Origin: Phycisphaeraceae bacterium
GTDB lineage: Bacteria > Planctomycetota > Phycisphaerae > Phycisphaerales > SM1A02
Reading direction: 5' to 3'
DNA length: 64,000 nucleotides
NCBI GenBank assembly: GCA_019636755.1
Contig: JAHBWZ010000001.1
Span: forward strand, 124,001-188,000
Each line of letters starts with the position of its first letter. Position 1 is the first letter of the stretch. The translations under genes and the position numbers were made by a program. Positions 16,382 to 23,177 of this stretch are shown piece by piece. The notes beneath the pieces were generated by a model. It searched no databases and was not told the DNA's origin. It saw only the letters and a program-made list of their open reading frames with translations.

Positions 16382-17209
16382 ATGGCTGACGGGATCCTGG
16401 CCGCCGGAGCATCCATGCCCGCACCGGTGGTCGTGCGCGCCGGTGCGTTCACGATCGCCTGCATCACCCGCGCCGCGCCGGACGCGGACGATGGCGCGAA
16501 CGAGGACGCCATGCTGATCCTGCCGGTGGACGCCGACCGGCTGGTGCTCGCCGTCTCCGACGGCGTCGGCGGCCGTTCCGGCGGCGCCGTCGCGTCGCGC
16601 ATCGCGGTGGAGGGCGTCGCCGCCGCGGTCCGGGCGGCCTCGCCCGGCGTCGACCTGCTCGCGCCGATTCTCAGCGGACTGGAGGAGGCGAACGACCGGA
16701 TCCTGGCCCTGGCGGTCGGCGCGGGCGCCACCATGACCATCGCCGAGATCAACGGCGAATGGATCCGGCTGCTGAACGTCGGCGACAGCGGCGCGCTGCT
16801 CTTCGGCCAGCGCGGCCGGGTCCGCCTGCGGACCGTGCATCATTCCCCGACGGGCTACGCCGTCGAATCCGGCCTGCTCGGCGAGGCCCAGGCGCTCGTG
16901 CATCGCGACCGGCACATCCTCTCGAACATGCTCGGCTCGCGCGACATGCACGTCGAGGTCGGCTCCGCGATGCGCATGGGGCGCCGCGACACCCTGCTTC
17001 TGGCATCGGACGGACTCTTCGACAACCTGCTGACGAAGACGATCATCGACACGGCCCGCTGCGGCGCGCCGGCACGGGCGGCGGCGCGGCTGATCGAACT
17101 CGCGGGCCGGCGGATGGGGGACACCGGCGACGGCGCCGACGCCCCGGGCAAGCCGGACGACCTCACGTTCATCCTTCTGCGCCTCGCACCGCGGGAGCGG
17201 GCCGGATGA
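16382..17209 (+). CDS. PP2C-family serine/threonine phosphatase
   Basis: The 275-residue protein has the PPM/PP2C metal motifs in order: NEDAML near residue 40, VSDGVGGRSGG, VGDSGALL, LASDGLFDN and KPDDLTFIL near the end. It would remove phosphate from serine or threonine using two metal ions. Its end overlaps the start of the following kinase gene by four bases (ATGA), so kinase and phosphatase are likely made together and may act on the same target. No membrane segment is seen. Substrates are unknown. Confidence 0.88.
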   Translation: MADGILAAGASMPAPVVVRAGAFTIACITRAAPDADDGANEDAMLILPVDADRLVLAVSDGVGGRSGGAVASRIAVEGVAAAVRAASPGVDLLAPILSGLEEANDRILALAVGAGATMTIAEINGEWIRLLNVGDSGALLFGQRGRVRLRTVHHSPTGYAVESGLLGEAQALVHRDRHILSNMLGSRDMHVEVGSAMRMGRRDTLLLASDGLFDNLLTKTIIDTARCGAPARAAARLIELAGRRMGDTGDGADAPGKPDDLTFILLRLAPRERAG

Positions 17210-17979
17210 AGGCGGACCCGGATCGCATCGTCTCGTTCGACCTTTCCCCGGGCCGCGCCATCGGCGAAGGCTACATCGTGGAGTCCAAGCTCGGGCAGGG
17301 CTGGGAGGGCGAGGTCTACAAGGTGATCGAGCGGCGGACCGGCGCGCGGCGCGCGGCGAAGATCTTCTTCCCGCGCCGAAATCCCGACGAACGGGCGCTC
17401 ACCTTCTACGCGCAGAAACTCGAACGGCTGGCCTCCTGCCGCATCGTGATCCAGTACCACCACTCCGAGGTCCTGCGCTTCCGGAGCCACCGCATCCCCT
17501 GCATGATCTCCGAGTTCGTCGAAGGCGAGGTCCTGCGCGATTTCATCGGCCGGCAGCCGGAGGCCCGGCTCCAGCCGTTCGAGGCGATGCACCTGCTGCA
17601 TGCACTCGCGGCGGGCCTGGAGGAGATCCATGCCAAGCACGACTATCACGGCGACCTGCATGACCGCAACGTGCTCGTCTCGCGGCGCGGCGTGCACTTC
17701 GACGTCCGCGTGATCGATTTCTTCCACTGGGGCCGGTGCACGCGCTCGCACCTGCGGGAGGACGTGGCGGACCTGGTGCGACTGCTCTACGACGCCGTCG
17801 GCGGGCGGGCGGCCTACGCCGGCCAGCCACCGGAGATCCGCGCGATCTGCCGCGGCCTCCGCCGCGATCTCATCGATCGCGCCTTTCCCACCGCGCGCGC
17901 GCTGCGCGAGCACCTGGACTCCTTCACCTGGACGGAGCCGCGCCGCCGGCGATCCCGCGCCCGCCCTCGACGCCGGTGA
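17206..17979 (+). CDS. Small protein kinase-like protein with DFF in place of DFG
   Basis: The 257-residue protein has a glycine-rich loop (KLGQGWEGEVYKV, 28-40), a candidate ATP lysine K52 (RAAKIFF), and a catalytic loop HGDLHDRN with D150 and N155. The metal-binding motif is D171-F-F rather than DFG. The lobe after it is short, and there is no activation-segment APE motif or extracellular domain of the usual bacterial Hanks kinases, so it resembles atypical or phosphotransferase-like kinases. It overlaps the PP2C phosphatase gene. The C-terminus is arginine-rich. Activity is plausible because the key residues remain. Confidence 0.72.
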   Translation: MKADPDRIVSFDLSPGRAIGEGYIVESKLGQGWEGEVYKVIERRTGARRAAKIFFPRRNPDERALTFYAQKLERLASCRIVIQYHHSEVLRFRSHRIPCMISEFVEGEVLRDFIGRQPEARLQPFEAMHLLHALAAGLEEIHAKHDYHGDLHDRNVLVSRRGVHFDVRVIDFFHWGRCTRSHLREDVADLVRLLYDAVGGRAAYAGQPPEIRAICRGLRRDLIDRAFPTARALREHLDSFTWTEPRRRRSRARPRRR

Positions 17980-18058: not shown

Positions 18059-18202
18059 GGCCGCCCGGGCGGGACCCCGGGTCCGGGACGGCACCATCCC
18101 GGAGCCGACACGGTGCGGCGCCCGGGCAGCGGAGCCCGCGGACGCCCGCCGGGGGTGCCCCGGTCCGGCGCGGATCGGGTCGACACGCGGAGGCATGCAC
18201 GA

Positions 18203-19471
18203 GTGAAGCACGGTGGAACCGTTCGATCGAGCGCGGCGCGGCCCGGAGAGCGGGCGGCGGTCGACGGCGCCGGACGCACCCAGGCCGGGGCGAACGGGCA
18301 GGGCCCGCCGGCCGTGAAGGAGGCGGCCGCGCCGGTTCCGTTCGGGCGCCGGTCGATCGACCTCGTCGCGCGGGACCGTCCGGCGGCCGCCCGTGCCGCG
18401 ACGCTCACCGGGATCTCCATCCTCAACGAATCCGGCATCGCCCACGACGCGCTGGTGCCGGACCTTCCGCCCGCGGAGTTCCTGCGCATCCACCGCGCGA
18501 TGGTCCTGACGCGCGCGTTCGACGGGCGCATGCTGAACATGCAGCGCCAGGGCCAGATGGGAACGTTCGCGCCGGGATACGGGCAGGAAGCGACGCAGAT
18601 CGGACAGGTCTGGCCGCTGCGGGCGGAGGACTGGTTCAGTCCCTCCTATCGATCGTTCGGCGCGCAGATCGTCCGCGGCTGGACGATGGACCACCTCATG
18701 CTCCTCTGGGCGGGCTTCCACGAGGGATTCGCCCCGCCGCCGGGCGTCAACGACCTTCCATTCTCCATCGTCATCGGATCGCACCTGCCCCTGGCGACGG
18801 GCGTCGCCATGGGCCTGACGATCCAGGGCCGGCGCGATGCCGTACTCGTCAACTTCGGTGACGGCGCTTCGTCGGAAGGTGCGGTCCATGAAGCGATGAA
18901 CTTCGCCGCGGTCTTCACCGCGCCGGTCGTCTTCGTGCTGGAGAACAACGGATACGCGATCTCGACCACCCTCGAGCACCAGACCGGACAGGACATCCTC
19001 GCCGCCCGCGGCCCGGCCTGCGGCATGCCGGGCGTGCGCGTGGACGGCAACGACGTCTTCGCGGTGATGACCGCCTGCCGCGAAGCGCTGGAGCGGGCGC
19101 GGTCCGGCGGCGGCCCGACGCTGGTCGAGGCGGTCACCTACCGCATGGGCGTCCACACCACCGCGGACGATCCGAAGGTCTATCGCGACGATGCGGAAGT
19201 CGAGGCATGGCGCGCCCGGTGTCCCATCGCCCGCTTCGAGAAGTGGCTGGTCGGACGCGGCCTGATCGACGAGGCGGGCGTGCAGGCGGTGACGGAGGCG
19301 TGCGAACTCGAGGTCCTGGAGGCGCGCGACCGCTTCCGCGGACGCGCCGTCGCGCATCCGGAGGAACTCTTCGATTTCGTCTACGAGTCCCTGCCCGAGG
19401 AACTCCGCGAGCAGCGCGAGGAATACCTCGCGCGCCTCAGGGCGAAGGGCGTGATCGATCCCGCGACCTGA
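18203..19471 (+). CDS. pdhA: Pyruvate dehydrogenase E1 component, alpha subunit
   Basis: This 422-residue thiamine-diphosphate enzyme subunit decarboxylates pyruvate with the beta subunit. The first 70 residues are low-complexity. The domain then shows RAFDGRMLNMQRQGQMGTFA, GSHLPLATGVAMG and the thiamine-diphosphate motif GDG...NN (FGDGASSEGAVHEAMNFA then LENNGYAIST). The aromatic and small residues around the active site look like Bacillus-type PdhA rather than branched-chain enzymes. The GTG at 18203 has GGAGG 9 bases upstream, better than the in-frame GTG at 18113. The E1 beta gene begins 43 bases downstream. Confidence 0.9.
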   Translation: MKHGGTVRSSAARPGERAAVDGAGRTQAGANGQGPPAVKEAAAPVPFGRRSIDLVARDRPAAARAATLTGISILNESGIAHDALVPDLPPAEFLRIHRAMVLTRAFDGRMLNMQRQGQMGTFAPGYGQEATQIGQVWPLRAEDWFSPSYRSFGAQIVRGWTMDHLMLLWAGFHEGFAPPPGVNDLPFSIVIGSHLPLATGVAMGLTIQGRRDAVLVNFGDGASSEGAVHEAMNFAAVFTAPVVFVLENNGYAISTTLEHQTGQDILAARGPACGMPGVRVDGNDVFAVMTACREALERARSGGGPTLVEAVTYRMGVHTTADDPKVYRDDAEVEAWRARCPIARFEKWLVGRGLIDEAGVQAVTEACELEVLEARDRFRGRAVAHPEELFDFVYESLPEELREQREEYLARLRAKGVIDPAT

Positions 19472-19513: not shown

Positions 19514-20530
19514 ATGGCCGAATCGACGATGCATCAACTCACGATGGTCGAAGCCCTCAACCTCGCCCTCTGCGAGGCGCTGGAGCATGATCCGACCGTC
19601 TGCCTGCTGGGCCAGGACATCGGAGTGAACGGCGGCGTGTTCCGGGTGACGAAGGGACTGCAGGAGCGGTTCGGGCGCGGCCGCGTCATGGACACGCCGC
19701 TGGCCGAATGCGGCATCGTCGGCGCCGCGGTCGGCATGGCGATCTCCGGGCTGCGCCCGGTGGCGGAGATCCAGTTCTCCGGCTTCACCATGCAGGCGTT
19801 CGACCAGATCGAGCAGAACATGGCGCGCTTCCGGAACCGGACGCGACACCGCTACCCGATCCGCATGGTGCTCCGGACGCCGTATGGCGGCGGCATCCGC
19901 GCGGTCGAGCACCACAGCGAGTCGCGCGAAGCGTACTGGGCGCATACGCCGGGCCTGAAGGTGGTGATCCCCTCCAGCCCGCGCAACGCCCGCGCGCTGC
20001 TCGCGGCGGCGATCGCGGACCCGGACCCCGTCATCTTCTACGAGCCCAAGCTCATCTACCGCGCCTTCCGCGAGGACGTCCCGGACGCCCCGGAGACGCT
20101 GCCGATCGGACGGGCACGCATCGTGCTGGAGGGAACGGACGTCACCCTCATCGCCTACGGCGCCATGCTGCGCCGCGCCCGCGAGGCCGCGGACGATCTC
20201 CGCGATCTCGACGGCACCTCGGTCGAACTCATCGACCTGCTCTCGATCAGTCCGATGGACACGCAGACGATCGCGGAGTCCGTCCGTCGGACCGGCCGCT
20301 GCGTCGTCGTGCACGAGGGACCGCGCACCTGCGGTATCGCGGCGGAGGTGATCGCCCGCATCAATGAACACGCGTTCGAACACCTCCTGGCGCCGGTGCG
20401 TCGCGTGACCGGCTTCGATGTCCACTTTCCCTACTTCCAGACGGAAGAGCACTACCTGCCCGATCCCGACTCGATCGCGCGCGCGGTCCGGGAGACGATC
20501 GCGTGGGATCCGACGCACCGGCCCCGATGA
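19514..20530 (+). CDS. pdhB: Pyruvate dehydrogenase E1 component, beta subunit
   Basis: The 338-residue subunit completes the E1 active site. Typical segments are LGQDIGVNGGVFRVTKGL, MDTPLAECGIVGAAVGMA, RTPYGGGIRAVEHHSES and DLLSISPMDTQTI. Length and motifs match Pdh/Bkd beta subunits, with no truncation. It lies between E1 alpha and E2 on the same strand with short gaps, so the three are surely co-transcribed. There is no strong ribosome binding site. Confidence 0.93.
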   Translation: MAESTMHQLTMVEALNLALCEALEHDPTVCLLGQDIGVNGGVFRVTKGLQERFGRGRVMDTPLAECGIVGAAVGMAISGLRPVAEIQFSGFTMQAFDQIEQNMARFRNRTRHRYPIRMVLRTPYGGGIRAVEHHSESREAYWAHTPGLKVVIPSSPRNARALLAAAIADPDPVIFYEPKLIYRAFREDVPDAPETLPIGRARIVLEGTDVTLIAYGAMLRRAREAADDLRDLDGTSVELIDLLSISPMDTQTIAESVRRTGRCVVVHEGPRTCGIAAEVIARINEHAFEHLLAPVRRVTGFDVHFPYFQTEEHYLPDPDSIARAVRETIAWDPTHRPR

Positions 20531-20602: not shown

Positions 20603-21860
20603 ATGGATCGTGAGTTCCGGCTTCCCGATCTCGGCGAAGGCGTTCACGAGGGCCAGATTCTGCGCCTGCTCATCGCCGAGGGCGCCGCGGTGCACGAGGA
20701 TCAGCCGCTCATGGAGGTGGAGACCGACAAGTCCGCGGTCGAGATTCCGTCGCCCTGCACCGGCGCGATCGTCAAGTGGCACGTCCGCGAGGGGCAGGCG
20801 GTGCGCGTCGGTGACGTGATGGTCACGTTCTCCGGCGCCGGCAGCGGTCCCGCCGCGGCGCCGGCGCGTCAAGACGCGGGCGCGCCCGCGGCGGTCGCGG
20901 TCCGTGAGGCACCGCCGTCGGCACCGCGCCGGGTCGCGGCGTCGCCCGCCGTGCGCACCGCGGGCCCGGCAGCTCGGCGTCGACCTCGCCACCGTCGCCG
21001 GGAGCGGGCCCGGCGGGCGCATTCTGCTCAGCGACCTGGACGGCGCCGCCGCGGCCCCCGTCCGGCCATCCGCGCCGCCGCCCGGGCCGGCCGCCGGCCG
21101 CCCCGTCGAACGAGCCCCGTCCCCGGCGAGCCCACCACCGCGCCGCGGGGCTCCGGCCGCGCGGGAGCCGCTCTCGCTGCTCCGCAAACTGACCAGCCGC
21201 ATCATGGTCGAGTCGGTGCGGACCATTCCCCACGTGACCGACTGCGATGATGCGGACGTGACGGATCTCGACCGCCTGCGGCGCGGATTCAATGACGATC
21301 CGTCGCGCGATCCGGCGCACGACGCGCCGAAACTGGGCCTGCTGCCGTTCGTGGTCGCGGCGGTCGCGCGGGCGCTGCGCAGGCACCCGGTCTTCAACGC
21401 CGGCCTGGACGTCGAGCGGGAGGAGATCGTGTACCACGACCGCATCGGCATCGCCATCGGCGTGCAGACCGAGCGTGGCCTCGTGGCGCCCGTTCTCCGG
21501 GATCCCGACCGTCGCTCGATCCGCGAACTCGCCGTGGAGATCGACCGGATCACCGCAAAGTGCCGGGCCGGCCGCTTCGAAAGCGCCGACGCCGAAGGCG
21601 CCACGTACACGATCTCGAACGCCGGCGCGATGGGCGGAAGCCGATACTCCACGCCGATCATCACGCCACCGCAGGTCGCGGTCCTGGCCGTGGGGCGATC
21701 GCGCCTGATGCCGTGGGTGGTGGACGGCCGCGTGGAGCCGCGGCTCGTCATGCCGCTGAGTCACTCCATGGATCATCGCATCGTCGACGGCGCGCAGGAG
21801 ATCGCGTTCATGCGTGATGTCATCGGCGACCTGGAGCGGCCGGCGCGGCTGCTTCTCTGA
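20603..21860 (+). pseudogene. pdhC: Pyruvate dehydrogenase E2 (dihydrolipoamide acetyltransferase) with a one-base frameshift
   Basis: Two frames together make one normal E2 of about 418 residues. The first frame (from the ATG at 20603, with GGAAGG upstream) encodes a single lipoyl domain with the lipoyl-lysine K43 in ETDKSAVEIPS, and a linker. The second (ending 21860) encodes the rest of the peripheral-subunit-binding domain (LGVDLATVAGSGPGGRI) and the whole catalytic domain with LSHSMDHRIVDG. The break falls inside the binding domain. Removing one G from the GGG at 20962-20964 restores a continuous ASPAVRTAARQLGVDLA. Codon use and motifs downstream look intact, so a sequencing or assembly error, or a very recent mutation, is more likely than an old pseudogene. 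The enzyme transfers acetyl groups to CoA in the complex core. Confidence 0.88.
20962..20964 (+). other. Frameshift site in the E2 gene
   Basis: A GGG run where the conserved reading frame needs GG. The upstream frame loses similarity immediately after it and the +1 frame gains similarity at the same point. Confidence 0.8.
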
Positions 21861-21917: not shown

Positions 21918-23177
21918 ATGGTCGTCGGAACCTTTGCCTCGGAGATCGACCTTCTCATCGCCGGCAGCAGCGATGCCGCGCTGGCCGCGGCGCAGACGGC
22001 GGTCCGATCCGGGCTGTCGGTGGTCGTCGTGGATCCGGCGCCGGCGAACCCCGGCCTGGATCCGGGCGGGCTCCGCACGATCGCGGACTGCCTTCCCGCG
22101 TTCGTCGATCCGGCGTCGCGGCGCGTGAATCTCGACGCGGTCCGGCGGTTCGCCGCGCGCTGTGCCGAGCGGTGCGCCGCGGCACGCGCCGAAGAGGTCC
22201 TCGCCACCGGGGCGCTTCGCGCCGTCGGGCCGCTCCGCTTCGAGAGCGCCCGCGATGCCGCCGTCGACGGCGACACGAGCCTGCCGCGCCTCCGATTCCG
22301 TCGCGCGATCATCGCCCCGCCGCCGCCGCCGATCGATCCGGGCCGCCTGCTCGGTGACGGACCACTCGTGATCCGCGGCCTGTCGGCGCGGACCCTGGAG
22401 GCGGCGGCCCTGCGCGCCGCCCTGGACCTGCCGGTCCACCTCGACCTGGATCCGGCGCCGCTCACCGCGCTGATCGGTCCGGAGGCGCTGGCGGCGTGCC
22501 TGGCCCTCGGCGCGCCGTCCGGCGTCACGATCGGCGGCCTGCCGGACGATGCCCCCGTGCTCGCGGTGGTGGAGAGCGCCGACTTCCGCGGGATCGACCT
22601 CGGCGCCGCGGGCGTGGTCATCGGTGCGTCCGGCGCCCTGGACGTGACGCCGGAGTGGCGCACGCGCGAGCCGCGCATCCTCGCGCTGCCCCCGGCGGGA
22701 TGGTCCGGCGGGCCGGCATGGGCGCGTCCGCATCATGACGGCGGCGCCTTTGCGCAGCGCGCCGGTCGATGGGCGGCGCACCTCGTCGCGGGACGCGCCT
22801 CGCCACCGCCGGAGTCGGCGGTACCGGTCTTCATCTTCCGTCCGCCCGATCCCCTGCGCGGCGCCGCGGCGGCCGGCGCGCTGCCCGGATCCGATGCGGC
22901 CGCCGGCGGACCTCCCACCGTGACGGGCAGCGCCGGCAGCGGCGCGCTCTCGGCACGGGTGGTCGCCGACGCCGTGCATGGCACGATCGAGGGCGCGATC
23001 ATCACGGGCTGCCGCAGCGCCGACGCGCCGCTGCTCGCGCTCGCCATGCGGACGGTCATCGACATGGCCGGCACGGCCGGTGATCTTGCGGGCGTCCTGC
23101 TGCCCGCGATCGATCACCAGGGTGCCACCGCCCTCGCCGACGCCGCGGATGCCGCGGCGGGCCTGGCGGGCGGCTGA
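21918..23177 (+). CDS. Degenerate E3-like (dihydrolipoyl dehydrogenase-like) protein without redox motifs
   Basis: The 419-residue protein fills the E3 slot of the operon and can be laid along dihydrolipoyl dehydrogenase from end to end. The FAD strand-turn-helix is present (EIDLLIAGSSDAALAAAQTA) but GxGxxG has become GSSDAA. The disulfide motif GGTCLNxGC reads GGLRTIADC, with R53 for the first cysteine and C58 kept. ATGS reads APPP at 133-136. The NAD-binding GxGxxG reads RGLSAR. The AIGD motif reads ALPP. The C-terminal dimerisation domain is recognisable (VADAVHGTIEGAIITG), but HPTLSEA reads HQGATAL, so the glutamate is lost. The frame is uninterrupted, so this is not a simple pseudogene. 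A structural, non-catalytic role in the complex is an inference. The alignment is by eye. Confidence 0.7.
   Translation: MVVGTFASEIDLLIAGSSDAALAAAQTAVRSGLSVVVVDPAPANPGLDPGGLRTIADCLPAFVDPASRRVNLDAVRRFAARCAERCAAARAEEVLATGALRAVGPLRFESARDAAVDGDTSLPRLRFRRAIIAPPPPPIDPGRLLGDGPLVIRGLSARTLEAAALRAALDLPVHLDLDPAPLTALIGPEALAACLALGAPSGVTIGGLPDDAPVLAVVESADFRGIDLGAAGVVIGASGALDVTPEWRTREPRILALPPAGWSGGPAWARPHHDGGAFAQRAGRWAAHLVAGRASPPPESAVPVFIFRPPDPLRGAAAAGALPGSDAAAGGPPTVTGSAGSGALSARVVADAVHGTIEGAIITGCRSADAPLLALAMRTVIDMAGTAGDLAGVLLPAIDHQGATALADAADAAAGLAGG

Follow-up and report, generated by a model that had tools for sequence, protein, structure and literature searches.

The E3 position of a pyruvate dehydrogenase (PDH) operon, in the 64,000-nucleotide stretch of DNA analysed here (the window), is occupied by a gene whose product, P0001, resembles dihydrolipoyl dehydrogenase (E3) along its length and has lost its catalytic motifs. 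At slightly better than even confidence, we interpret P0001 as the operon's own E3 turned into a retained, non-catalytic pseudoenzyme of structural or regulatory function, with a canonical lipoamide dehydrogenase (Lpd) supplying the activity.

Operon context and lost catalytic motifs

The host genome comprises 4.1 Mb in 20 contigs and is 99% complete; its relatives belong to the Phycisphaerales (Planctomycetota). The PDH genes of the window lie on the forward strand in the order E1α, E1β, E2 and, after 57 bp, the E3-like gene. E1α, the alpha subunit of the PDH E1 component (18113..19471), matched Pfam E1_dh with 252 bits and TIGR03181 with 402.7 bits, its conserved portion beginning at ~18413. 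E1β (19514..20530, + strand) contains Transket_pyr and Transketolase_C and scored 290.5 bits with PRK09212. Together with the E2 matches given below, these assignments confirm the place of the E3-like gene behind E1α, E1β and E2. An amidohydrolase gene on the opposite strand comes after it. Just 5' of E1α we observed a Ser/Thr protein kinase gene (16759-17979), part of which matches MAD6, a defence kinase, with 60 bits; comparison of the flanks of relatives' operons revealed no notable co-conservation of this kinase or of the downstream genes with the operon.

The E2 gene, previously taken as one intact frame, is split by one extra base within its peripheral subunit-binding domain. The lipoyl domain and the first half of the subunit-binding domain are encoded at 20603..20956 (+; Biotin_lipoyl, 68.6 bits; lipoyl-lysine motif ETDKSAVEIPS), and the second half together with the catalytic domain at 20964..21860 (+; 2-oxoacid_dh, 230.5 bits; E3_binding, 36.3 bits). 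Alignment with seven orthologous E2s located the shift at 20957..20963 (+), where ACCGCGG comprises 7 bases versus 6 in the orthologues, between ASPAVR and ARQLGVDL. The first reading frame continues out of register to 21250, and the catalytic part lies in a mechanical ORF at 20904-21860 with its DHRIVDG motif intact. This one-base shift may reflect either a true lesion or an error in sequencing.

The E3-like gene itself runs from an ATG at 21918 to a stop at 23177 (+ strand) and encodes 419 amino acids without an interrupting stop; coordinates, strand, length and open frame were all exact on re-check. Likewise, all six catalytic landmarks are altered relative to the canonical neighbours as the original prediction had claimed, including the FAD, redox-disulfide, NAD and His-Glu motifs. 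The FAD-binding GxGxxG, which reads GGGPGG in the canonical neighbours, has become GSSDAA (residues 16-21), and the CxxxxC redox disulfide is absent, with R53 replacing the first cysteine and C58 being kept. ATGS is changed to APPP, the NAD-binding GxGxxG to RGLSAR, the ribityl-binding GD motif from VGD to LPP (within ALPP), and the His-Glu pair HPTxSE to HQGATA. Because these motifs are lost, we would not expect P0001 to carry out NAD-linked lipoamide oxidation.

It is very improbable that base errors in the assembly made this aberrant sequence. The shift in E2 could be such an error, but base-calling errors cannot account for a 1.26-kb gene of coherent codon usage in which substitutions number in the hundreds and in-frame indels are many, and the first step of the change is already visible in sister genomes (see below).

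Descent from E3 and predicted fold

None of TIGR01350, Pyr_redox_2 and Pyr_redox_dim matched P0001 up to E = 1 among the Pfam and NCBIfam models, and the sole Pfam trace was a sub-cut-off match to FAD_oxidored; the intact orthologue L044, unlike P0001, scored 422 bits in this test. A profile built from canonical E3 orthologues, however, matched the P0001 frame with 64 bits (E 2.5e-21) and found nothing significant in the five remaining frames of the gene. An hhalign comparison of P0001 with E3 gave a probability of 99.6% and an E-value of 1.8e-23 over residues 1-397. Used as a query, P0001 returned matches in 17 of 60 other genomes, mostly E3-length frames, nearly all of which lie directly 3' of an E2 sharing 45-63% identity with that of the window. 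Dozens of orthologues occupy the same operon slot in Phycisphaerales genomes, sharing the start motif MVVGxF (MVVGEF in the relatives, MVVGTF in P0001) and aligning end to end. As judged from the shared start, the full-length alignment, the score in one frame only and the hhalign result, the resemblance of P0001 to E3 is beyond chance and argues for descent from E3; the whole-length alignment first made by eye is thereby borne out. A reading as an alternative-frame or chance ORF was rejected, as the E3 match occurs in this frame only and codon scores favour this frame throughout.

An AlphaFold model of P0001 (pLDDT 76, pTM 0.74) resembled E3s in structure. Its top Foldseek matches were dihydrolipoamide dehydrogenases (TM ~0.66-0.72) and its best PDB matches were E3s, the model having been built with an alignment of E3s, which favours the E3 fold. 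A sequence search of solved structures with P0001 alone returned zero matches. An E3-like fold of P0001 is thus supported at the level of prediction. P0001 has its descent and its place in the operon in common with canonical E3 (TIGR01350; Pyr_redox_2 plus Pyr_redox_dim), as well as the predicted fold and the order of domains, but differs in every catalytic motif, in being missed by the Pfam and NCBIfam E3 models and in being ~50 residues shorter than its sister E3s.

Lpd in trans and constraint on the window copy

A full-length canonical Lpd is encoded on contig C5 and scored 524.5 bits with TIGR01350 (cut-off 408.8), so that the search for a second, normal lpd had a clear outcome. Its counterparts in G019, G020, G034 and G018 are 65-75% identical, and E3-family matches outside the operon were present in all 10 genomes examined. 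Furthermore, a second PDH operon with the order E1α-E1β-E2 (L169:5685-9261; G000 contig C14) has no E3 gene nearby, and at least one complex therefore probably depends on a shared Lpd already.

The simplest mechanism suggested by these genes is that Lpd acts in trans and the dead E3 has a structural or regulatory part. E1 and E2 of the window operon would still oxidise pyruvate, and the trans-encoded Lpd would re-oxidise dihydrolipoamide. As a subunit that is structural or sets stoichiometry, the dead E3 might occupy or shape the E3-binding position on E2, or else might pair with active Lpd; its contact with either partner is putative.

The main rival to a retained pseudoenzyme is an unfinished, decaying relic. 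Here, the operon E3 would be redundant given a trans-encoded Lpd that serves all complexes and would drift under relaxed selection, its frame being open only since stops are rare in a GC-rich genome; the frameshift in E2 would belong to the same decay and, if real, would therefore strengthen this explanation. We consider it a serious possibility, short of an even chance. The canonical Lpd encoded in trans is in line with it, as is the abundance of long antisense ORFs in the window, which makes open frames cheap. Moreover, the dN/dS of the window copy against its two nearest relatives (G019 and G020) is 1.06 and 0.87, with dS near 1, compared to ~0.2-0.35 in canonical E3 comparisons; these values are rough, because they are simple pairwise Nei-Gojobori counts on GC-rich, partly saturated sequences. 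A search for congeneric genomes that would permit a comparison inside the genus found none. Contrary to the earlier statement, the composition of P0001 is not normal: the protein contains 22% Ala and 51% Gly, Ala, Arg and Pro, versus 37-38% for these four residues in sister E3s. Correspondingly, GC2 of the gene is 0.62 versus ~0.53 in most neighbour genes, and GC1 is raised as well. We regard the dN/dS of about 1 and the GC-driven composition drift as signs of weak constraint on the window copy. Both count against a retained pseudoenzyme, as do the broken E2 frame and the interface domain of P0001, which would bind E2 but is no better conserved than the rest of the protein.

On the other side, only 1-16% of neutral simulation runs, depending on the settings, left 419 codons free of stops. 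P0001 has experienced ~18 private gap events with no detectable change of frame, codon periodicity marks one frame over the full gene length, and the similarity to E3 persists up to residue 397. We sought compensated frameshifts within the gene and saw none, nor did we find pieces of the gene matching E3 in another frame; since the protein alignment can show in-frame gaps only, the absence of such other-frame matches is the stronger point. A free gene this diverged would be expected to gain stops and frame-breaking indels, and we therefore read P0001 as a protein that the cell probably still makes, the constraint on it being altered or weak. The earlier view that selection keeps the gene thus has indirect support from its frame and codon usage, but dN/dS lies close to 1, the value named as speaking against it.

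Repeated loss of the redox disulfide in related operons

To place P0001 among its relatives, we used 57 operons in which the E3 position could be read and a tree calculated from E1α, E1β and E2. The E3-like gene adjoins E2 in the relatives, and redox-dead versions recur: one or both cysteines of CxxxxC are lost in 13 of the 57 operons. On the tree this corresponds to 6 changes (bootstrap range 6-6), of which at least five are forced by well supported branches. According to the tree, related operons thus lost the redox disulfide independently on at least five or six occasions.

The window operon groups with its two sister lineages in a single inactive clade (support 99/95). In both nearest relatives, G019 and G020, the first redox cysteine is replaced by Trp and the E3 is otherwise intact apart from the NAD loop, which is already changed to GGSSSA and GGSASG; between these two, dN/dS is 0.50 for E3 and 0.41 for E2. 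The genome of G014, a further close relative, is 72% complete and yielded no copy of this operon's E2 or E3, probably owing to missing data. Elsewhere, the cysteine segment is deleted throughout a six-member lineage (L060, L076, L080, L081, L082 and L086) and lost in L063, the first cysteine is changed to Ala in L051, and the second is lost in L089. In the PDH-operon E3 of Desulforhopalus singaporensis (L110:10295-11701), the first redox cysteine is replaced by Tyr and the HPTLSE motif is lost. Each of the 13 inactive copies has an open frame without interruption over the length that its contig covers, and the subunit-binding domain of E2 is intact in the other inactive lineages wherever it could be read.

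Constraint is most evident in the lineage with the deleted cysteine segment. Its closest pair (L076/L080) shows a dN of 0.11 and a dS of 0.90 (dN/dS ~0.12), and L081/L082 a dN of 0.22 and a dS of 2.16. The L080 model reached a pLDDT of 91.6 and a pTM of 0.87, and its best structural matches were E3s with E. coli Lpd on top. By these substitution counts, the E3-like protein of this lineage is clearly constrained by purifying selection, which counts against the relic explanation. Because it is predicted to be well folded and is under purifying selection, we conclude that non-catalytic E3s are kept in this operon. The structural or regulatory role first proposed for P0001 is thus well supported as to selection in other lineages; for the window copy the support is indirect and comes from the retained frame and codon usage.

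Degradation of the NAD motif with both cysteines kept was found in further lineages (e.g. L059, L067, L070 and L071). The E3s of these four and of L095 and L097 comprise 392-402 amino acids; their NAD domain is shortened and lacks GxGxxG, with both redox cysteines and HPT retained; judging from these features, they may use a different electron acceptor. Separately, we observed a thioredoxin-like insert (FWATWCGPC) of ~370 amino acids, with a signal-peptide-like N-terminus and TPR-like repeats, between E2 and the E3-like gene in L053, L060, L061, L062, L063, L072, L074, L076, L078, L082, L084, L085, L087 and L096; in L078 the thioredoxin domain is doubled (524 amino acids). L066 (WYBR01000033.1), labelled Vicinamibacteraceae (Acidobacteriota), falls inside the Phycisphaerales on the PDH tree beside L065 and is probably mislabelled.

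These variants also bear on whether the E3 fold of P0001 was recruited for an activity beyond NAD-linked lipoamide oxidation, e.g. one that involves another ligand or passes electrons on without NAD. Adaptive divergence would fit a high dN in a preserved frame, and relatives that lose the NAD motif but keep the disulfide, or carry an exported thioredoxin-like gene beside the E3-like gene, would agree with it. However, P0001 has lost the FAD motif as well, so that no redox cofactor site is evident, and the window operon lacks the thioredoxin-like gene. We thus consider a new activity improbable.

A dead E2 is a textbook component of animal and fungal PDH, known as E3BP. This eukaryotic protein (component X) is a catalytically inactive paralogue of E2 that recruits E3 (PMC10156792). 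Both E3BP and P0001 are inactive homologues of a PDH subunit, kept in the complex or beside its genes, but P0001 is a dead E3 itself, bacterial, and a putative member of the complex. More generally, there are well-known pseudoenzymes that serve as allosteric partners and exert their effect through an active homologue (PMC10211241). P0001 likewise loses its catalytic motifs and keeps its predicted fold, with a canonical homologue in the same genome; pyruvate dehydrogenase and flavins are unmentioned in that review, and the open-access library searched contained no description of a pseudo-E3 or of an inactive lipoamide dehydrogenase that we could find.

Taken together, we propose, tentatively and at somewhat less than even confidence, that PDH operons of the Phycisphaerales repeatedly made their own E3 a conserved non-catalytic subunit, with NAD binding degraded in further lineages. 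Such a pseudo-E3 would set E3 occupancy on E2 or pair with the shared Lpd, and the window protein would be its most divergent member. Annotation of lpd by operon position can accordingly be wrong. Repeated inactivation with the gene kept provides a natural series, from intact E3 through the exchange of cysteine for Trp and the deletion of the cysteine segment to the loss of everything, which lets one ask about the non-catalytic part that E3 plays in the complex.
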